Shown: positions 54,695-64,000 of the stretch, piece after piece
Layout: the number at the start of each line of letters is the position of its first letter
Position numbering within the stretch: the first letter of the stretch is position 1
DNA from: Nodosilinea sp. FACHB-131
GTDB lineage: Bacteria; Cyanobacteriota; Cyanobacteriia; Phormidesmidales; Phormidesmidaceae
Reading direction: 5' to 3'
DNA: 64,000 bases
Assembly (NCBI RefSeq): GCF_014695395.1
Contig: NZ_JACJOF010000026.1
Span: forward strand, 1-64,000
Translations under genes and position numbers: made by a program
The notes under the pieces: model-generated
What the model was told of the DNA's origin: nothing
The model's input: only the letters and a program-made list of their open reading frames with translations
Database searches by the model: none

Positions 54695-55783
54695 ATGCTT
54701 AAGCCTCAGACAGACAGGAAAAGGTTGTGGTGGTTGGGTTCAACAGCAGTTCTTTTGCTCCTGGTGGGTTTCATCTGGAGAGTTCCTCAGTGGGGTCTTT
54801 CCCGATCTATTACTGATGAGAAGGTAAAAGCCGAACTACTAAATGCCAATCGAGACAATGCCCTAAAAGTCATTCAGACCATAGGAGGGCTAGGCTTTAT
54901 CGGCACAGCCTATCTGGCTTGGAGAAACTTACAGCTTGCTGAGGATAAAAACGTCACAGACCGTTTTAGCAAGGCTGTTGAGATGCTGGCTGATGACAAG
55001 CTAGAAGTCAGGCTTGGTGGTATCTACTCCCTTGAACGAATCGCAAGAGACTCTAAAGCAGATCACGCTGTGGTGATGGAAGTCCTAACAGCTTTCGTTA
55101 GGGCTAAAAGTACACCTAGGGAAGAAGAACTAACCTTGTCCCAGGACATTCAAAGCACTCTAACCGTCATTGGACGGCGTACACCTATAGAAAACGAACA
55201 GCCAATAGACCTTAGAGGAGCTCTCCTCAGCTATGCCGATCTCAACGGAGCTTTCCTCAGCTGGGTCAATCTCAGCTGGGCCAACCTCAGCGGTGCCAAG
55301 CTCTTCAATACCAATCTCACCAGTGCCAACCTCGTCGGTGCCAATCTCATTAATGCCAATTTCAGCTTCGCCAATCTCAGCAGTGCCAGCCTTAGCTGGA
55401 CCAAGCTCAACGGTGCCAGCCTCAGCGGTGCCAATCTCAGCGAGGCCAAGCTCAGCGGTGCCAAGCTCAACGGTGCCAACCTCGTCGGTGCCAATTTCAG
55501 CGATGCTGACCTCAGCAGAGCTAACCTCATCGATGCCGACGTCAGAGGAGCTAACCTCACTGATGTCGACCTCAGCGAGGCCGACCTTAGCAATGCCGAC
55601 CTCAGCGGTGCTAACCTCAGCGGTGCTGACCTCAGCAATGCCGACCTCGAAGGCGTCAGTTTTGACGAGAAAACAATTTGGCCAGATAAAACCGAAGTGG
55701 CCAAGGCAACAAATATCCCAACCACGGTCAAAACACGGCTAGGCATCGAGGTCACGCCGCCTGCTGGGCCTGAACACCCTTAA
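54695..55783 (+). CDS. Pentapeptide-repeat membrane protein
   Basis: A 362-residue protein. Two hydrophobic segments near the N-terminus (WWLGSTAVLLLLVGFIWRVP and TIGGLGFIGTAYLAW) are followed by RFSKAVEMLADDKLEVRLGG, a short helical region. About 24 to 27 consecutive pentapeptides of form A(N/D)L(S/T)X fill about 170-325, making a right-handed quadrilateral beta-helix. The tail FDEKTIWPDKTEVAKAT is typical of this cyanobacterial class. The helical segment plus pentapeptides suggests a signalling scaffold. The DNA has a 15-bp period. Confidence 0.88.
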   Translation: MLKPQTDRKRLWWLGSTAVLLLLVGFIWRVPQWGLSRSITDEKVKAELLNANRDNALKVIQTIGGLGFIGTAYLAWRNLQLAEDKNVTDRFSKAVEMLADDKLEVRLGGIYSLERIARDSKADHAVVMEVLTAFVRAKSTPREEELTLSQDIQSTLTVIGRRTPIENEQPIDLRGALLSYADLNGAFLSWVNLSWANLSGAKLFNTNLTSANLVGANLINANFSFANLSSASLSWTKLNGASLSGANLSEAKLSGAKLNGANLVGANFSDADLSRANLIDADVRGANLTDVDLSEADLSNADLSGANLSGADLSNADLEGVSFDEKTIWPDKTEVAKATNIPTTVKTRLGIEVTPPAGPEHP

Positions 55784-56029: not shown

Positions 56030-56219
56030 TTATGGGCCGCCTGGCGCGGGCGGCATAGTGTTTGTAGATGATGGCGGTGCTCACTCTGGCCAGGTAGCTC
56101 ACATCCTGCACCGATTGCCGACAACCCGGTGCCGTTTTCTGGGCATCACTTGCCGATACGTCTCCCAAGCGTTGGTGTAGATGACAGCATACTGTCGATA
56201 GACATTGGGCAAGGAATCC
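56030..56219 (-). pseudogene. IS1-family transposase relic
   Basis: The minus strand reads DSLPNVYRQYAVIYTNAWET then RQVMPRKRHRVVGN, the InsB pattern of an IS1-family DDE transposase. The frame then shifts and reads SVQDVSYLARVSTAIIYKHY with decayed ending. Only the central third is recognisable and stops interrupt it. It differs from the relic at 220-739. Confidence 0.6.
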
Positions 56220-56249
56220 TAGAGGCGTGGCGCACTCTAGGCAGAGCAG

Positions 56250-56296
56250 CCTTTGACGCTGAAATCTGTGAGATTATCGGGTCTCAGCGTCAAAGG
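56250..56296. repeat. 13-bp perfect inverted repeat
   Basis: CCTTTGACGCTGA and TCAGCGTCAAAGG with a 21-base loop, about 330 bases upstream of the SWIM gene and next to the IS1 relic. It might be a terminal repeat of a mini-element or a transcription stop. Confidence 0.5.
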
Positions 56297-56623
56297 CCAA
56301 CCAGAGCCATTGTTTGTGCCTATGTGGTCAAAAGTGACCAAAATTCGTCGTATTGCACGGTTAAAAGGCCTTTTTTTAGTCGTATCAAATTTGTCACTAC
56401 CTTTAGTGTTTTACCCGTCGCAGTAGTGTCTTGAGCAACCCTGTTTCATCTTTTGCTTCAATTTTGATGACGTTCGCTTTGCTCCAAAGATTTCTTCAAT
56501 TTGCTCTCACAGTCAATCATGGTACATTTGAACTAAATCTTTCGTAAGAATACGGATGACACCCCTCAACCGAAAACGTTACGAAGGCGTTGAGACGTTG
56601 CATGAGTTTGACGGGGAGTTTCT

Positions 56624-57985
56624 ATGCCTGCCCAATGGACAGCAGATCAGGTATTAGCGCTGGCACCTGATGCAGCCTCTGCAAAAAATGGGCGTGGGTT
56701 GGCAACCCGTCAGAAGTGGATTGCTCTGGGTCAGCAACAGTCCGTGATTTGGGGTGAGTGTCAGGGAAGTGGCAAGAATCCTTATCAGACGCAGATTGAT
56801 CTGAGCGAACCGGCGTTTCGTTGTAGCTGCCCTAGCCGCAAATTTCCCTGCAAACATGGGTTGGGACTGTTTTTGTTGCTAGCAGAGCAACCGGGGGAGA
56901 TGGTTGAGACAGATCCCCCTGCTTGGGTTGCAGAATGGTTAGCCAGCAGGTCGCAGCGGGCGGAGAAGCAAGCAGAGAAGCAGACGAAACGACAGGACCA
57001 GACAGCCGATCCGATCGCACAAGCCAAGCGGGTAGCAGAACGGCAGCGTAAGGTGAGTGCAGGCATTCAAGAATTGCGCTTATGGTTAGACGATCGAGTC
57101 CGGCAGGGGTTGGCAACGTTGCCGCAGGAGTCTTATCAAATGTGGGATACGATCGCTGCCCGAATGGTTGATGCTCAGGCGCCCGGTCTGGCACGACAGT
57201 TACGAGAGCTGGCTGGAATCATCCATACGGGTGCAGATTGGAGCGATCGCGTGCTGGAGCGGTTGGGGCGGCTATATCTGCTGATTGAAGGCTTTGAGCG
57301 GATTGAAACCTTGCCAACTGCTGTACAAGCTGACCTGCGGACTCAAATTGGCTGGTCACTGAATCAGGAGGAGGTCTTGACCGGGCAGGCTCATACAGAT
57401 CTGTGGCTGGTAATTGGGCAACGCACCCAGGAGGAAGAGCGGTTGCGGGTACGGCGAACCTGGCTCTACGGCATTGCCACTCACACCTTTGCCCTCTTGC
57501 TGGATTTTGCCCACGGTCATCAACCGTTTGAGCAAAGCCTTTTACCAGGAACCTGTCTGGAAGCGGAGTTGGTGTTTTATCCCAGTGCTTACCCTTTACG
57601 TGCCCTGATCAAAACTCGTCAGGAATCAGCTGTCCTCCCAAAACCCCCACCCGGTATTGAGTTGATTGCAGAAGCGGTATGCCCTTCAGGCATTAGCGAA
57701 GCGATCGCCACTTACAGTAAGGCATTGGCAAACTGCCCCTGGCTAGAACGATTTCCTCTATTGCTGCAAGATGTGATTCCCCGGCAGGAGGAGAAGGGCT
57801 GGCTGCTTCAGGATCAACAGGGTATAGTGTTGCCCCTCTCCCGTCGAATGGAAGCAACTCAAGGATGGCAACTCCTAGCCCTGAGTGGAGGGCATGCCCT
57901 TTCGGTGTTTGGTGAGTGGGATGGGGCGTTTTTAACGGTGTTGAGCGTTTGGGTAGAGGATTCTTACTATGGCTTTGGCAACTGA
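56624..57985 (+). CDS. SWIM zinc finger protein
   Basis: A 453-residue protein. The SWIM motif is FRCSCPSRKFPCKHGLGLFL with C67, C69, C76 and H78 (CxCx6CxH). SWIM fingers bind DNA or proteins. Residues 95-145 are charged and helical (EKQAEKQTKRQDQ), and the rest resembles the SWIM protein of the E. coli yehLMPQ set (YehQ), from memory. Its gene overlaps the next by 17 bases, so the two are coupled. It is first in a five-gene operon with MoxR and VWA genes. Confidence 0.85.
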   Translation: MPAQWTADQVLALAPDAASAKNGRGLATRQKWIALGQQQSVIWGECQGSGKNPYQTQIDLSEPAFRCSCPSRKFPCKHGLGLFLLLAEQPGEMVETDPPAWVAEWLASRSQRAEKQAEKQTKRQDQTADPIAQAKRVAERQRKVSAGIQELRLWLDDRVRQGLATLPQESYQMWDTIAARMVDAQAPGLARQLRELAGIIHTGADWSDRVLERLGRLYLLIEGFERIETLPTAVQADLRTQIGWSLNQEEVLTGQAHTDLWLVIGQRTQEEERLRVRRTWLYGIATHTFALLLDFAHGHQPFEQSLLPGTCLEAELVFYPSAYPLRALIKTRQESAVLPKPPPGIELIAEAVCPSGISEAIATYSKALANCPWLERFPLLLQDVIPRQEEKGWLLQDQQGIVLPLSRRMEATQGWQLLALSGGHALSVFGEWDGAFLTVLSVWVEDSYYGFGN

Positions 57986-59531
57986 TGACCCTTGGCAGAC
58001 GATCGCCTCCGCTGCTTTGCTAGGCACAGAGCGACAACCGTTTCAACTAGCGAACATCTCCGGTAACTTAGGAAACTGCCTGTCTCAATTAAGCGCTCGT
58101 CCCAAAGAATCGGCACTCCTTTCTGCTGCTGGGATTGTGTCCCTACATCAGCGCGTTGGCTGGCTTCCCGAAGTGCGATCGGTGATTGAAGCCGAACCGT
58201 GTTCATTTGATGATCTTCCCCAGTGCAGTCCTCGTGCTGCGCGTTGTTTACAGCAAATTCTTGAGGGACAGTTTCCGCAACTGTTGAGCGAGTGGTTAGA
58301 GAAAGCTGCGATCGCCAGACAACGTGTGCCTGAGATGCTGCTCCCCTCTCTGCTAGATAAAGGACGACAGCAACGAGAATTGCGAGCAGCTATTCTACCT
58401 GTTTTAGGGCAACGGGGACGCTGGCTAGCAGCACAGAATCCTGATTGGAACTATGCAGTGGCTTTAACCACAGAAGCGGACTGGGAAACAGGAACGCCAT
58501 CAGCCCGATTGCTTTATTTGCAAGATCTGCGATCGCACCATCCTGATCACGCTAGAGAATTGCTGCAATCAACCTGGAAGCAAGAAACAGCCAGCGATCG
58601 TGCCAAATTTCTGGAAGCCTTTCGTATTGGATTAAGCATGGCAGATGAGCCATTTTTAGAAAATGGATTGGGCGATCGGAGTAAGGAAGTTCGGCGAGTT
58701 GCAGTAGATTTACTTGCGAGTCTGCCCACTTCGCGCCTGCAACACGTAACAGAACACACTTGTCGCTATCTCTCACTTGAGCGTGAGGGACCATCCTTAC
58801 ACGTGCAGCTACCCGATCATTTGGATGAAACGCTGATTCAGCTTGGGTTTGAACTAAAACCATTGTCCTCCATAAATAAGGTGGGCGAAAAAGGTTGGTG
58901 GCTTTTGCAAATGCTTGGTGCAACTCCGCTTAGCACTTGGACCGAGCAGTGGCAGATGTCACCACAGCAAATTATCAAGCTAGCCCAATCCCATGAATGG
59001 CAGAATGTTTTGCTTGATGGATTTGCATTAGCAGCCAAGCGCCAGGGAAACCATGAATGGTTGGAGGAAGTTATCAGAGTTTGGTTCGCCGGACAAACAT
59101 CAATCAATAGAGATGTAGTGCTCGTTGACCTTGGTACTGAGGCTTTGGTTGATGCGTTGTCTGGCGATCGACGTAATGCTCTCTTAATCGATCTGTTCCA
59201 GATTTTTCACAGAAGAATCAATGATTCATTAACAATTTGGTTGCTTCGCTCCAGTTCCCAACTGTGGAGCGTTGACTTAGCTCGTCTCGTTTTGGATGAA
59301 TTAGAGGAACATTTGAATCACACCAAAGATTTTTCAAATTCTGATTGGGAACTTAGATCTGCACTCAAAGAATTTGCTCGTTTTATTCCAGTTAGCCTCA
59401 CTTCAGAAGTTATTCAGTTACGTGAAAGGCTTGCAAATGATTCTCATTGGATAAACAGCATGAACGATCTGATAACGCTACTAGAATTTCGCAATGAGAT
59501 GGCACAGGCGTTAGGGAAAGATGGGGGATAG
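57969..59531 (+). CDS. DUF5691-like helical repeat protein
   Basis: A 520-residue protein with no membrane segment. Its start WQTIASAALLGTERQPFQ and later LPSLLDKGRQQRELRAAILP, LGQRGRWLAAQNPDWNYA and GDRSKEVRRVAVDLLASLP are features of the DUF5691 family, which occurs beside SWIM, MoxR and VWA genes. The central region looks like a HEAT-like helical repeat, suited for protein binding. It is the second operon gene. Function unknown; it may be an adaptor for the MoxR ATPase. Confidence 0.75.
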   Translation: MALATDDPWQTIASAALLGTERQPFQLANISGNLGNCLSQLSARPKESALLSAAGIVSLHQRVGWLPEVRSVIEAEPCSFDDLPQCSPRAARCLQQILEGQFPQLLSEWLEKAAIARQRVPEMLLPSLLDKGRQQRELRAAILPVLGQRGRWLAAQNPDWNYAVALTTEADWETGTPSARLLYLQDLRSHHPDHARELLQSTWKQETASDRAKFLEAFRIGLSMADEPFLENGLGDRSKEVRRVAVDLLASLPTSRLQHVTEHTCRYLSLEREGPSLHVQLPDHLDETLIQLGFELKPLSSINKVGEKGWWLLQMLGATPLSTWTEQWQMSPQQIIKLAQSHEWQNVLLDGFALAAKRQGNHEWLEEVIRVWFAGQTSINRDVVLVDLGTEALVDALSGDRRNALLIDLFQIFHRRINDSLTIWLLRSSSQLWSVDLARLVLDELEEHLNHTKDFSNSDWELRSALKEFARFIPVSLTSEVIQLRERLANDSHWINSMNDLITLLEFRNEMAQALGKDGG

Positions 59532-59601
59532 GGGATGGGGAATGGGTGACAAGTTTGGGTAATTTTTCTGCATTAATTTCATCAACAACAAAGCATCAAC
59601 T

Positions 59602-60750
59602 ATGGCAACCACAAAATCTAAAACTCAACACCCCGACTCTCAACCCCCAACCCCCGATCCCCCATCACCCAATTCCTCTCTCCTCCGCGAACACGCCGAA
59701 CAGCAATTTGCTCACGAACTCGAAGAACTGGCAAAAGCCGATACACGCCAACGCCCGCCAAACTGGAAGCTTTCCCCTTGGGCAGTAGCTATCTACTTAC
59801 TGGGAGGCAAACTGGACAATGGTTTTGAAGTGTCTCCTAAATACATTGGCAATCGTCGTTTGATGGAAGTTGCGATCGCAACCCTTGCCACCGATCGAGC
59901 CTTACTGCTGTATGGCGTTCCAGGTACAGCAAAGTCCTGGGTGTCTGAGCATTTGGCAGCAGCAGTTTCAGGTGATTCCACCATGCTGATTCAAGGAACC
60001 GCTGGTACGAGCGAAGAAGCCATTCGTTACGGCTGGAACTATGCTCGACTGCTGGCAGACGGTCCTTCAATGGAGGCGTTAGTTGCCAGCCCCATGATGC
60101 GGGCAATGGCAGACGGAAAAATTGCCCGTGTGGAAGAACTGACTCGCATTCCCTCAGATGTGCAAGATACATTGATTACTGTTTTGTCTGAAAAGACATT
60201 GCCCGTTCCCGAACTGAATACAGAAGTGCAGGCGACCAAGGGGTTTAGCGTGATTGCCACAGCGAATAATCGCGATCGCGGTGTCAACGAACTCTCTAGC
60301 GCCCTCAAACGTCGGTTTAATACGGTGATTCTGCCTGTTCCCAACACGATCGAAGAAGAAGTCAGCATCGTGCAACAGCGAGTGACAAGCCTGGGACGAG
60401 CCTTAGAATTGCCTGCCGAAGTGCCAGCTCTAGAGGAAATTCAGCGGGTGGTGACGATCTTTCGAGAATTGCGGGGTGGAGTCACCATTGATGGCAAAAC
60501 AAAACTCAAATCTCCCACAGGAACGCTCAGCCCAGCAGAAGCAATCTCAGTCGTGAACAGCGGCATGTCCCTCTCGGCTCACTTTGGTGATGGCTCTCTA
60601 ACGGCTAGTGATCTGATTTCTGGTTTAGTTGGAGCTGTTGTGAAAGACCCTATACAGGATCAGGTCGTCTGGAAGGAGTATCTAGAAACCGTTGTCAAAG
60701 AACGGGACGGTTGGAAAGATTTGTATCGCGCTAGCCGTGTGATGCTCTAG
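59602..60750 (+). CDS. MoxR-family AAA+ ATPase
   Basis: A 382-residue AAA+ protein. Walker A is LLLYGVPGTAKSWVSEHL (105-112). Instead of the usual acidic Walker B it has KIARVEELTRIP near 175-186, with E-E but no D. VLSEKTLPVPELN, FSVIATANNRDRGVNELSSA and LKRRFNT (arginine finger and sensors) follow. The form resembles E. coli YehL. The first 60 residues are low-complexity (SQPPTPDPPSPN). MoxR ATPases work with VWA partners as chaperones; its partner is at 63107. Confidence 0.9.
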   Translation: MATTKSKTQHPDSQPPTPDPPSPNSSLLREHAEQQFAHELEELAKADTRQRPPNWKLSPWAVAIYLLGGKLDNGFEVSPKYIGNRRLMEVAIATLATDRALLLYGVPGTAKSWVSEHLAAAVSGDSTMLIQGTAGTSEEAIRYGWNYARLLADGPSMEALVASPMMRAMADGKIARVEELTRIPSDVQDTLITVLSEKTLPVPELNTEVQATKGFSVIATANNRDRGVNELSSALKRRFNTVILPVPNTIEEEVSIVQQRVTSLGRALELPAEVPALEEIQRVVTIFRELRGGVTIDGKTKLKSPTGTLSPAEAISVVNSGMSLSAHFGDGSLTASDLISGLVGAVVKDPIQDQVVWKEYLETVVKERDGWKDLYRASRVML

Positions 60751-60761
60751 GGGCAATCCTC

Positions 60762-63110
60762 ATGTCAATTCACATTTTTGGAATTCGTCATCATGGACCC
60801 GGCTCTGCTCGCAGTCTTTGTGAAGCGTTGACGCAACTTCAGCCAGATATTGTACTGGTGGAAGGACCGCCGGATGCTGAGGCAGTTTTACCTCTGCTGA
60901 TTGATTCTCAGATGCGTCCACCTGTCGCATTGCTGGTTTATTCACCCGAAAACCCTCAGCAGGCAGCGTATTACCCTTTTGCAGTGTTTTCTCCAGAGTG
61001 GCAGGCCATTCACTATGGGTTGACTCAGCAGATTCCTGTCCGATTCATGGACTTACCCCAAACTCATCGGTTTGCCATGGGAATGGCAGACAAGGAACAG
61101 GAATTCGCGAATCAAGAACAGCCGCCGGAGGATGGAGAGAAAGCTGAAACAGAATCATTAGAAGCACTCCCTCAGCTAACTCCTAATCCCTATGATGATC
61201 CCTTGAGCCTGCTTGCCCAAGCAGCAGGATACAGCGACGGTGAACGTTGGTGGGAACATCTAGTCGAACAACGGCAGGATAGCACAGAGTTGTTTGCTGC
61301 CATTTTAGAAGCGATGACTGTGCTGCGATCGCATATTGAAACCAACCCCCAATCCCCACTTTCTAACCTCCACTCCCCACTGGAACCGTATCGAGAAGCC
61401 TATATGCGGAAGACCATCCGCGAAGCAGAAAAGCAAGGTTTTCAACGAATTGCCGTTGTCTGTGGCGCATGGCACGCGCCTGCTTTAGCAACGATGCCAC
61501 CTGCCAAAGAAGATGTTGCCCTGCTAAAGGGACTCCCAAAACTTAAGGTTGAAGCGACTTGGGTTCCCTGGACATATGGACGATTGACAATTAGCAGAGG
61601 CTACGGAGCAGGCATTGAATCTCCTGGTTGGTATCAGCATCTGTGGGAACAGGGAAAACGGAGCGTTGGCAAAGCCTCTCTTCTGAAGAATTCCACCCAA
61701 TCATCTCTTGGCACCACCAGTAGTTCGATTCGCTGGATGACGAAAGTTGCTCGACTACTGCGAAAACAAGACCTTGATGCCTCCTCTGCCAGCGTCATTG
61801 AAGCGGTTCGATTAGCTGAAACATTAGCAGCATTGCGCGATCGTCCCCTTCCAGGTCTGCCTGAGTTAAATGAAGCCACCCAGACGGTTCTTTGTTTTGG
61901 TGATTCACTGCCAATGCAGTTGATTCAGCAGCAGCTCATTGTGGGTGAACGGTTGGGTAAGGTTCCTGCCGAAACCCCAATGATTCCCCTACAACAGGAT
62001 TTACAGCGACAGCAGAAGCGACTGCGGCTGAAACCAGCAGCAACAGAAACAACTCTAGATCTGGATCTTCGTAAACCTCTAGATTTAGAGCGATCGCACC
62101 TGTTACATCGACTCAACCTATTGGAGATCCCTTGGGGGCGGCAACAATCGACAGGTAACACGAAAGGCACCTTCCGCGAATCTTGGCGGCTGCAGTGGCA
62201 ACCAGAGTTTGCTATTCACCTGATTGAGGCAGGAATCTGGGGCAATACGATTGAGACGGCTGCCATGACTTGGACGTGCGATCGCGCCAATCAAGCCAAT
62301 CTGCCCAACCTCACTAAGCTGATTGATCAAACCCTGCTGGCAAACCTCCCTCAGGCGGTCGTTCGCCTGATGAAATGTCTAGAATCAGAAGCTGCACTGG
62401 CAAGCGATATGGCACATCTGATGAATGCTTTGCCTCCTCTAGTGAACGTGACGCGCTACGGGACAGTGCGCCAGTTTGAAACGACAACAGTGGGGCATGT
62501 CGTTAACGGGCTAATCACTCGCATTTGCATTGGTCTACCGATTGCTGCGGCTTCTCTGGATGATGATGCAGCAACTCAAATGCATCAGCAGGTAAACGAC
62601 GTGAATGGCGCGATCGCGATTCTTCAACAACCTGATGCTTTAGAAATGTGGCAACAGGTTCTCCTTCAACTGGCCGACCAGCAGGGGTTACATGGGCTGG
62701 TAGCGGGGCGCTGCTGTCGCCTACTCTTTGAAGCCGGAGTCTTTCAGCCAGAAGATACGGCACGACGACTGGGGTTAGCACTCTCAACGGCCAGCGAACC
62801 TGCTCAAGCTGCCGCCTGGATTGAAGGATTTTTAGCAGGCAGTGGGTTATCGCTGCTCCATAACCCAACGCTTTGGCAAGTTTTAGATGACTGGGTGGCT
62901 CAGCTATCGAGTGAAACGTTTACTGCAATTTTGCCGCTGTTGCGTCGCACTTTTTCTACCTTCGCTGCCCCTGAACGCCGCCAGATGGGAGAGCGAGTTC
63001 GGCAGGGAAATAGTCATACCCCTGTATTCGTCAAAGCGGGTTCGTTTGATAGCGATCGCGCCGATTCCGTCCTCCCACTTGTTGCCCAATTACTTGGTAT
63101 TGCACCATGA
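60762..63110 (+). CDS. DUF5682-like protein (YehM-type)
   Basis: A 782-residue cytosolic protein. The start IFGIRHHGPGSARSLCEALT, LVEGPPDAEAVLPLL, and later QRIAVVCGAWHAPALA are the conserved blocks of DUF5682, the family that includes E. coli YehM, from memory. The paired histidine and VEGPPD motifs resemble TraB/PrgY-like or esterase active sites, but this is by eye only. It starts 11 bases after the ATPase and overlaps the VWA gene as ATGA. Function unknown; it is the conserved large partner in this operon type. Confidence 0.8.
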   Translation: MSIHIFGIRHHGPGSARSLCEALTQLQPDIVLVEGPPDAEAVLPLLIDSQMRPPVALLVYSPENPQQAAYYPFAVFSPEWQAIHYGLTQQIPVRFMDLPQTHRFAMGMADKEQEFANQEQPPEDGEKAETESLEALPQLTPNPYDDPLSLLAQAAGYSDGERWWEHLVEQRQDSTELFAAILEAMTVLRSHIETNPQSPLSNLHSPLEPYREAYMRKTIREAEKQGFQRIAVVCGAWHAPALATMPPAKEDVALLKGLPKLKVEATWVPWTYGRLTISRGYGAGIESPGWYQHLWEQGKRSVGKASLLKNSTQSSLGTTSSSIRWMTKVARLLRKQDLDASSASVIEAVRLAETLAALRDRPLPGLPELNEATQTVLCFGDSLPMQLIQQQLIVGERLGKVPAETPMIPLQQDLQRQQKRLRLKPAATETTLDLDLRKPLDLERSHLLHRLNLLEIPWGRQQSTGNTKGTFRESWRLQWQPEFAIHLIEAGIWGNTIETAAMTWTCDRANQANLPNLTKLIDQTLLANLPQAVVRLMKCLESEAALASDMAHLMNALPPLVNVTRYGTVRQFETTTVGHVVNGLITRICIGLPIAAASLDDDAATQMHQQVNDVNGAIAILQQPDALEMWQQVLLQLADQQGLHGLVAGRCCRLLFEAGVFQPEDTARRLGLALSTASEPAQAAAWIEGFLAGSGLSLLHNPTLWQVLDDWVAQLSSETFTAILPLLRRTFSTFAAPERRQMGERVRQGNSHTPVFVKAGSFDSDRADSVLPLVAQLLGIAP

Positions 63111-64000
63111 CGGACTCTCCCTCAACAGAACGATTGAGACGCTGGCGGCTCATCCTCGGTGGTGGCGCAGCGGATGGCATTTGCAGTTCAACCAACGGTA
63201 ATGGCATGGAAGGTGACGGCTTTAGTTTGGGAGGGGCAGATCAAGCGATCGATCAGACGTTGAGTGCGCTTTACGATAGCGATCGTCAAGGTGGACTGGG
63301 GGCTTCCTCTCCCAAAGTGGCGCGTTGGTTGGGTGACATTCGCACCTACTTTCCCACTTCAGTTGTAAAAGTGATGCAGCAAGATGCCTTGAATCGGCTG
63401 AACCTGCGCCAAATGTTATTGGAACCAGAACTGCTGGAGGCAGTAGAACCTGATGTGCATCTGGTCTCTAACCTGTTGTCACTAAGTGGGGTAATGCCTG
63501 GTAAGACAAAAGAAACCGCTCGAATTGTGGTCAGACGAGTCGTTGAAGATCTGATCCGCAAACTTGAAAATCCAACTCGGCAGGCAATTTTGGGTAGCCT
63601 CAATCGTTCTATCCGCAACCGTCGTCCCCGCCATCACGAAATTGATTGGCATCGGACAATTCGTGCCAATCTGAAACACTATCAGCCTCAATACCGCACC
63701 ATTATTCCTGAAACTCGGATTGGTTTTGGACGCAAACGTTCTGCCCTGCGAAACATCATTCTCTGCGTGGATCAGAGTGGTTCAATGGCAACCTCCGTCG
63801 TTTATGCCGGAATATTTAGTGCTATTTTGGCATCCCTCCCCGCAGTGCAAACCCATATGGTTGTGTTCGATACGGCAGTGGTTGACCTGACCGACTTGCT
63901 GCAAGATCCCGTTGAGGTTTTATTTGGAACTCAGCTAGGAGGCGGCACTGACATTAATCAGGCACTCGCTTACTGCCAAAGCCTGATTTGCCAACCACAG
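63107..64000 (+). CDS. VWA-domain protein, YehP-like (partial, runs off right edge)
   Basis: The first 298 residues are visible; no stop occurs before the edge. The N-terminal region is helical (RRWRLILGGGAADGICSS). A von Willebrand A domain begins near 215 with the MIDAS motif CVDQSGSMATSV (D222) and has GTQLGGGTDINQAL, the MIDAS threonine. The VWA protein is expected to bind a target and present it to the MoxR ATPase. The ATGA overlap with the DUF5682 gene shows coupling. More operon genes may follow outside the window. Confidence 0.88.
   Translation, partial: MTDSPSTERLRRWRLILGGGAADGICSSTNGNGMEGDGFSLGGADQAIDQTLSALYDSDRQGGLGASSPKVARWLGDIRTYFPTSVVKVMQQDALNRLNLRQMLLEPELLEAVEPDVHLVSNLLSLSGVMPGKTKETARIVVRRVVEDLIRKLENPTRQAILGSLNRSIRNRRPRHHEIDWHRTIRANLKHYQPQYRTIIPETRIGFGRKRSALRNIILCVDQSGSMATSVVYAGIFSAILASLPAVQTHMVVFDTAVVDLTDLLQDPVEVLFGTQLGGGTDINQALAYCQSLICQPQ

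Follow-up and report, generated by a model that had tools for sequence, protein, structure and literature searches.

CbbO and NorD are the partners of the MoxR-type proteins CbbQ and NorQ. The systems CbbQ/CbbO, NorQ/NorD, CoxD/CoxE and RavA/ViaA all share a MoxR motor with a VWA partner, and pairs of this kind have been described as motors or maturation factors (PMC3893208, PMC7159879). MoxR-vWA ternary conflict systems likewise join a MoxR AAA+ protein and a VWA partner to a third protein (PMC7159879), and in Escherichia coli a YehL-type MoxR operon, yehLMPQ, has the order MoxR-DUF5682-VWA-SWIM. A literature search returned no paper stating a function for YehL-type MoxR operons and none on DUF5682 or DUF5691. 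Here we describe a relative of yehLMPQ from the cyanobacterium Nodosilinea sp. FACHB-131, located at the right-hand end of the window, by which we mean the whole stretch of 64,000 nucleotides that was analysed (positions 1 to 64,000 of contig NZ_JACJOF010000026.1). Its SWIM, DUF5691, MoxR, DUF5682 and VWA genes constitute one five-part unit, and while the YehL-type MoxR operon is already known in outline, the five-gene form is new and is now better resolved. The best explanation for it, although one that we hold tentatively and regard as possible rather than probable, is a DNA-damage-linked hydrolase machine that is driven by MoxR and VWA and would act near nucleic acid.

Gene content and comparison with yehLMPQ

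Gene calls and a Pfam search bear out the five genes and families named at this site by an initial annotation of the window, all of them on the forward strand. The SWIM gene (56624-57985, 453 residues; PF04434, E 6e-5) is followed by genes for DUF5691 (57969-59531, 520 residues; Pfam E 2e-131), a MoxR-type AAA+ ATPase (59602-60750, 382 residues; AAA_5, E 2e-36), DUF5682 (60762-63110, 782 residues; PF18934, E 1e-290) and a VWA protein of 390 residues, the last of which runs from 63107 to the window end at 64000 and on to contig base 64279 (VWA_CoxE, E 2e-53 for the whole gene and 4e-35 for its in-window part). The computed junctions also agree with the tight packing (70 bases or less) and the two overlaps previously described: SWIM and DUF5691 overlap by 17 bases, gaps of 70 and 11 bases separate DUF5691 from MoxR and MoxR from DUF5682, and DUF5682 and VWA overlap by 4 bases (ATGA). 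Extension to the right shows that the operon ends 279 bases past the window, at contig base 64279; the next long open reading frame is on the opposite strand. Walker A residues are conserved in MoxR, as are the metal ion-dependent adhesion site (MIDAS) residues D222, S224, S226, T281 and D307 in VWA. The DUF5691 protein may contain HEAT-like repeats, HEAT_2 being matched weakly in 12 of 26 members (best E 0.0007); the conservation of this family was computed from 32 rows kept of 74 matches and hence leans to close relatives.

The likeness to yehLMPQ that had been claimed for the operon holds for three of its parts but not for the order of the genes. MoxR, DUF5682 and VWA are homologous to YehL (39.6% identity over 361 residues, E 7e-76, YehL being the nearest relative tested), YehM (26.5%, E 3e-41) and YehP (35.0%, E 3e-77), a SWIM gene is present in both operons, and DUF5691 is a separate gene as described, whereas SWIM stands first in the window operon and last in E. 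coli. Furthermore, the E. coli control genome has no DUF5691 match, and a DUF4132 gene (yehI) is found upstream there instead. YehQ has two SWIM stretches and gives no BLASTP match to the window SWIM protein at E 1e-3, and the profile comparison of the two with hhalign is weak, with P 0.003, 0.029 and 0.16 for the SWIM end, the middle and the OB end, respectively. The operon also departs from the CbbQ, NorQ, CoxD and RavA pairs, whose clients are other enzymes, whereas its likely client or partner is DUF5682. Some cyanobacteria likewise have genes of the E. coli type, arranged in two diverging groups: L027, L028 and L029 all contain DUF4132, MoxR and DUF5682, to which the first two of these loci add VWA and a YehQ-like gene.

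Co-occurrence of the five genes

When the GTDB species genomes were searched for DUF5682, at least 563 relatives were confirmed among at least 592 stretches, and the best 80 loci were kept, a sample that leans to close relatives. By record title their hosts are cyanobacteria, planctomycetes, Chloroflexota, acidobacteria, Bacteroidota, proteobacteria and others; several of the loci are cut by contig ends, and three pairs (L023/L044, L042/L116 and L047/L119) are identical DNA. The exact order SWIM-DUF5691-MoxR-DUF5682-VWA is found in 45 of the 80 loci and in another 6 with a gene of the DUF4132 (YehI) type behind it, that is, in 51 of 80 in total. A gene is missing or split in the remaining 29, partly from a contig end or a broken frame, and seven of these, including the cut locus L032, have DUF5682 alone. 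Apparent DUF5682-VWA fusions in two loci (L104 and L085) are GC-rich read-through frames 5' of VWA and not natural fusions.

Within the cyanobacterial phylum 16 of 386 genomes, that of the window included, match DUF5682 at E 0.001; 13 of the matches are strong and span much or all of the family (547-970 bits), and the weaker three comprise two partial ones (G221 and G426) and one below the cut-off (G105). DUF5691 is matched in 26 of the 386 genomes, the strong matches falling in exactly the 13 genomes with strong DUF5682 and the others being short and near positions 157-246. A panel of 40 genomes comprised these 13, G221, G426 and 25 negatives. All 13 five-gene genomes give strong MoxR and SWIM matches and 12 of them a strong VWA match, the one miss being a genome that is 73% complete, and the negatives show no strong intact match and a few weak ones. 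A MoxR remnant with two stops in one of the negatives, a genome of the same family (G260:C66:9655-10086, E 9e-18) is perhaps a decayed copy of the system. In G221 (L124) and G426 (L125) a variant is found that combines VWA and MoxR with a divergent DUF5682-like protein, whose frame is about 950 residues long, and neither genome gives a SWIM match or a strong DUF5691 match.

The unit moreover persists without an operon in one genus. All five genes are present, but apart from each other, in the four of its genomes that were checked for them (G054, G116, G252 and G342), and DUF5682 is found in seven of seven genomes of this genus. The draft genome G166 likewise has all five genes apart, and in G390 the five genes stand as two halves.

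Horizontal transfer and a possible role in conflict

The operon had been described as an accessory module, and in cyanobacteria its horizontal movement is borne out by patchy presence and by a copy shared between families. The stretch from window position 56484 to 64000 on the forward strand, and on to contig base 64303, is shared with a copy (L121) in G231, a genome of another cyanobacterial family, and corresponds to the operon and its promoter region. The operon DNA is about 91% identical between the two copies (90.8-91.0%, blastn), whereas their rpoB regions are 75.9% identical, and the window copy is therefore a recent acquisition. The five genes of these copies differ chiefly at silent sites, the ratio of nonsynonymous to synonymous substitution rates (dN/dS) being 0.06-0.23. 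Only 2 of 26 genomes of the window's own genus have any DUF5682 match. One is the window genome, and the other, G016, carries an E. coli-type copy.

An inverted repeat and an IS1 relic beside the operon had also been read as signs of a mobile module. The repeat is present (56249-56262 and 56284-56297), with 14 bases rather than 13, and a peptide resembling IS1 transposase can be recognized by eye at 56102-56218 on the minus strand, although it has no Pfam match at E 1; both lie outside the stretch shared with G231 and are hence neighbours of the operon and not parts of it. A second IS1 piece is found at the contig end (65972-66115; PF03400, E 4.8e-6), and a gene for a pentapeptide-repeat protein (54695-55783) adjoins the operon on the left on the same strand.

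The patchy presence in its own genus, the movement between families and the matches on 36 of 72,556 plasmid records would all suit a MoxR-vWA ternary conflict system, directed against phages or otherwise, in which DUF5682 would be the effector and the SWIM/OB protein a nucleic-acid sensor. MoxR-vWA conflict systems have indeed been described (PMC7159879), and among the nearest neighbours of the relatives, of which 132 of 136 were compared with PADLOC (four long ones were omitted), 58 defence families match somewhere, some of them strongly. However, no family is found in more than four of these neighbours, a count made without a control set, and the operon itself gives no PADLOC match of note, since four of its five proteins have no match at E 0.01 and MoxR matches only IetA, at E 0.002 over 30 residues. 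The bpMoxR model scores 24.2 bits against the window MoxR, below its cut-off of 27, and the third protein is here of the TraB/TIKI type, which likewise sets the operon apart from the ternary systems. Among the 641 frames flanking the 80 loci, the most frequent clusters resemble, by eye, response regulators (15 loci) and ABC transporter ATPases (11 loci), other clusters being present at no more than 4 loci, and no recurrent specific neighbour of the variable effector kind was seen, retroelements not having been searched for. Several of the 20 plasmid matches listed are chromosome-sized, the E. coli plasmid copy examined is a chromosome-like block between IS26 copies, and just 1 of 50,697 phage records has a match. 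Furthermore, at least 80% of yehLMPQ is covered at one place in 5162 of 5426 E. coli genomes. Fixed presence, which by the reasoning of the initial annotation would argue against a conflict role, is thus seen in E. coli and in the cyanobacterial genus that keeps the genes though scattered, but it fails in most of the cyanobacteria sampled. The lack of a notable match in the defence library and the near-fixed presence in E. coli make an anti-phage function a weak reading, and we consider a conflict role rather unlikely.

The DUF5682 protein

The AlphaFold2 model of DUF5682 (mean predicted local distance difference test score, pLDDT, 90.4; predicted template modelling score, pTM, 0.86) has an N-terminal domain of alpha/beta type, followed by a long part that is mostly helical. 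Two GX2H motifs are the signature of the TraB/TIKI superfamily, and the model and the conserved residues argue fairly strongly that the N-terminus is a TraB/TIKI-type domain with both motifs. This predicted domain comprises residues 1-285 (60762-61616, forward strand), with the motifs at residues 7-10 and 235-238 and with E34 and R211, and the remainder (61617-63107) is predicted to be solenoid-like. DUF5682 would accordingly share the fold, over residues 1-250, and both GX2H motifs with TraB, PrgY, GumN and ChaN, but differs from them in adding the large helical part and in being coupled to AAA+ and VWA genes. G7, H10, E34, R211, G235 and H238 are each kept in at least 95% of 92 sequences, rows covering less than 80% of the window protein being omitted from the counts and L061 and L098, with a stop within the matched stretch, from the alignment (A2). 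The E. coli-type rows that cover these positions also keep all of them, except that G7 is P in L027. The GX2H, glutamate and arginine residues are those that we take to be the catalytic residues of the superfamily; the hydrolase, which may be active, would probably be metal-dependent.

Of the 50 VIA structure matches listed, only 7w5z_E (Z 9.3, 182 residues aligned, root mean square deviation (rmsd) 4.7) stays within the N-terminal domain, and the others mostly span residues 444-750. This chain is named 'TraB family protein' and was found in the PDB by the single PrgY-type TraB sequence L146 from the cyanobacterial phylum (E 7e-6); the ciliate complex to which it belongs has a TraB-family subunit (PMC10060162). 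ChaN, EreA and other superfamily members are absent from the 50 listed matches, which excludes nothing. With rows of the E. coli type added and the TraB profile split, hhalign aligned DUF5682 to PrgY-type TraB at P 3.4e-4; the best control reached 0.029, and the accepted pair PrgY/GumN, used as a yardstick, 1.9e-4. GumN-type proteins and ChaN aligned to DUF5682 at P 0.52 and 0.015, the latter at the second motif. Pfam searches with 12 DUF5682 members were weak (TraB at 0.0022 in one, ChaN at 0.046 in two), and searches of solved structures gave nothing of note with the DUF5682 profile and no TraB chain at E 1 with the mixed TraB profile.

Several observations weigh against this assignment or against a catalytic role. 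The PrgY score spans 35 columns at the first motif and comes from a subset picked afterwards, and in the first hhalign comparison the mixed TraB profile (P 0.025) and ChaN (0.019) were within the control range. Foldseek returned nothing at E < 0.001 for either the DUF5682 or the SWIM model. Moreover, the TraB-fold protein of the ciliate respiratory complex is reported to be an accessory subunit, so that a protease role is not obligatory for the fold (PMC10060162).

If DUF5682 is an enzyme, MoxR and VWA may simply be its activase, serving it alone by metal loading or maturation, with the enzyme then carrying out a metabolic or stress task that is unrelated to DNA. Known MoxR proteins mature metal enzymes (PMC3893208), MoxR, VWA and DUF5682 are the parts common to all three layouts seen, and mutations in yehM arose in copper-grown E. 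coli (PMC12409786), although the copper result, as presented there, is a mutation list. The activase explanation does however leave unexplained both the SWIM/OB protein, strong as it is in every five-gene genome of the panel, and the LexA-like site described below, and we judge it a possible but doubtful account.

The SWIM protein

The model of the SWIM protein (pLDDT 91.1, pTM 0.75) shows a SWIM zinc finger, a helical middle and two probable OB folds. The SWIM domain at residues 2-96 (56627-56911, forward strand), with C67, C69, C76 and H78, is assigned from conservation and from its match to ZSWIM8 (9rwz_N; Z 9.8, rmsd 2.4, 94 residues aligned). Residues 250-446 (57371-57961) match mostly OB-fold proteins, with Z 5.3-7.2, and among the tandem OB matches are RPA70 (1jmc, Z 6.1, 170 aligned), HIN domains (Z 5.5-6.3, 151-168 aligned) and LEF-3 (7ypo, Z 6.4, 157 aligned). 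With moderate confidence, the C-terminus is thus probably made up of tandem OB folds like those of DNA-binding proteins. It counts against this view that every OB match is below Z 8, and such values may reflect a mere common arrangement, so that nucleic-acid binding by the SWIM protein is a prediction. The roles of the SWIM and DUF5682 proteins, which the initial annotation had called not known, are accordingly narrowed to a TraB/TIKI-type domain and probable tandem OB folds.

In the five scattered gene sets the match to the SWIM gene begins only at about residue 109 or 140, no zinc-finger pattern is seen in the retrieved stretches, and the match in G166 holds a stop. The zinc finger therefore seems dispensable there, and the helical and OB part would be the kept core. 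A match of DUF5691 to the first SWIM profiles (hhalign P 1e-88) was discarded as spurious, since it arose from long frames in that profile.

A combination of AAA+ protein, hydrolase and repeat adaptors is the common plan of quality-control machines, and the operon might likewise encode a general machine for stressed or aggregated proteins, in which the SWIM and HEAT-like proteins would act as substrate adaptors and DNA would play no special part. A MoxR protein of another subfamily has indeed been reported to shield a client protein from heat (PMC11432383). The probable OB folds and the LexA-like site would however be left unexplained by general quality control, which strikes us as unlikely.

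A LexA-like element upstream of the operon

The upstream regions of the operon in several cyanobacteria have a 14-base element in common, while their surroundings otherwise differ. It occurs as an exact AGT-N8-ACT in L030, L031 and L021 and with one base off in L121 and in the window (L002), where the candidate LexA (SOS) box GGTACATTTGAACTA is found at 56521-56535 on the forward strand, 88 bases 5' of the SWIM start codon. In published work the LexA box of cyanobacteria reads AGT-N4-11-ACT, and recA of Chroococcidiopsis is preceded by AGTATATCTGCACT (PMC13416735). With up to two mismatches, the operon-derived pattern has 21 sites in the window genome as compared with 6 for the reversed control. 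One site is 66 bases before a recA gene, and another precedes a second recA gene by 95 or 176 bases, according to which start codon is used. A third lies at least 56 bases upstream of paired umuD and umuC genes (S24 peptidase, E 2e-28; IMS, E 2e-37). By arithmetic, 21 randomly placed sites would reach any one region of 250 bases with a probability of about 0.0009. The window genome has two recA genes (L173 and L176), both with an upstream candidate element at two mismatches. Further sites precede gyrB (181 bases, inside another frame), radical-SAM, D12-class DNA methyltransferase and DUF1156 genes. An exact AGTACATTTGAACT (L169, bases 1432-1446; G000:C14) is found directly before a radical-SAM gene, with a divergent 437-codon frame without Pfam match on its other side, and the two may form a further LexA-controlled pair; a likeness of the L169 neighbour to TcmP, noted by eye, was given up for want of a Pfam match.

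A number of results nevertheless speak against LexA control, or restrict it. The pattern was derived from the operon itself and the regulon found afterwards, and sites also precede genes that are not known to be tied to repair, glutathione-transferase-like and sigma-factor-like genes among them. The window site is one base off AGT-N8-ACT, and neither recA site is exact, each being a base off. The strict form stands before only 5 of 15 cyanobacterial operons (shuffle mean 1.0, with 6 of 500 shuffles reaching 5) and, at chance level, before 2 of 54 others, or 1 of 53 without L044, a duplicate of the cyanobacterial locus L023. It is found before none of the five scattered genes of G054, and yehL-yehQ of E. 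coli differs from the window operon in having no exact LexA box. Furthermore, some cyanobacterial LexA proteins run no classical SOS response (PMC5101192). Damage control would hence be a local habit and not a general property of these operons. The 66 upstream regions gave no hit to any of the other patterns searched. These were the cyanobacterial RGTAC and the E. coli, Gram-positive and alpha-proteobacterial LexA patterns. A literature search for MoxR, LexA and cyanobacteria returned no paper on this subject by title.

A proposed function

Taking together the computed unit, its co-occurrence and transfer, the domain assignments and the LexA-like site, we propose the following for the DNA-damage-linked hydrolase machine that we favour. 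MoxR, as an AAA+ ring ATPase, and the MIDAS-bearing VWA protein would form the usual pair of motor and adaptor and would act on or with DUF5682, a TraB/TIKI-type and probably metal-dependent hydrolase or protease carried on a helical solenoid. The HEAT-like DUF5691 protein could serve as a scaffold, and the SWIM/OB protein, by binding nucleic acid, may carry the machine to nucleic acid or to nucleic-acid-bound proteins. In the window cyanobacterium and some relatives LexA would bind the upstream site and control the operon, so that the machine would be made upon DNA damage and might remodel or cut proteins on damaged DNA. In a more specific version, the substrates of a LexA-controlled AAA+ machine would be proteins on damaged or single-stranded DNA, which an RPA-like SWIM/OB protein would grip and the MoxR/VWA motor would pass to a TraB/TIKI-type metalloprotease; this version is in our view improbable as it stands.

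Should this version be true, it would represent a way in which bacteria strip protein from damaged DNA and, to our knowledge, the first role in DNA repair for the TraB/TIKI superfamily. YehL-type MoxR operons occur in E. coli as well as in cyanobacteria, planctomycetes and Bacteroidota. With an enzyme domain named, residues in it that are likely to be catalytic, a partner that probably binds nucleic acid and a candidate switch for damage, the family can now be tested directly.

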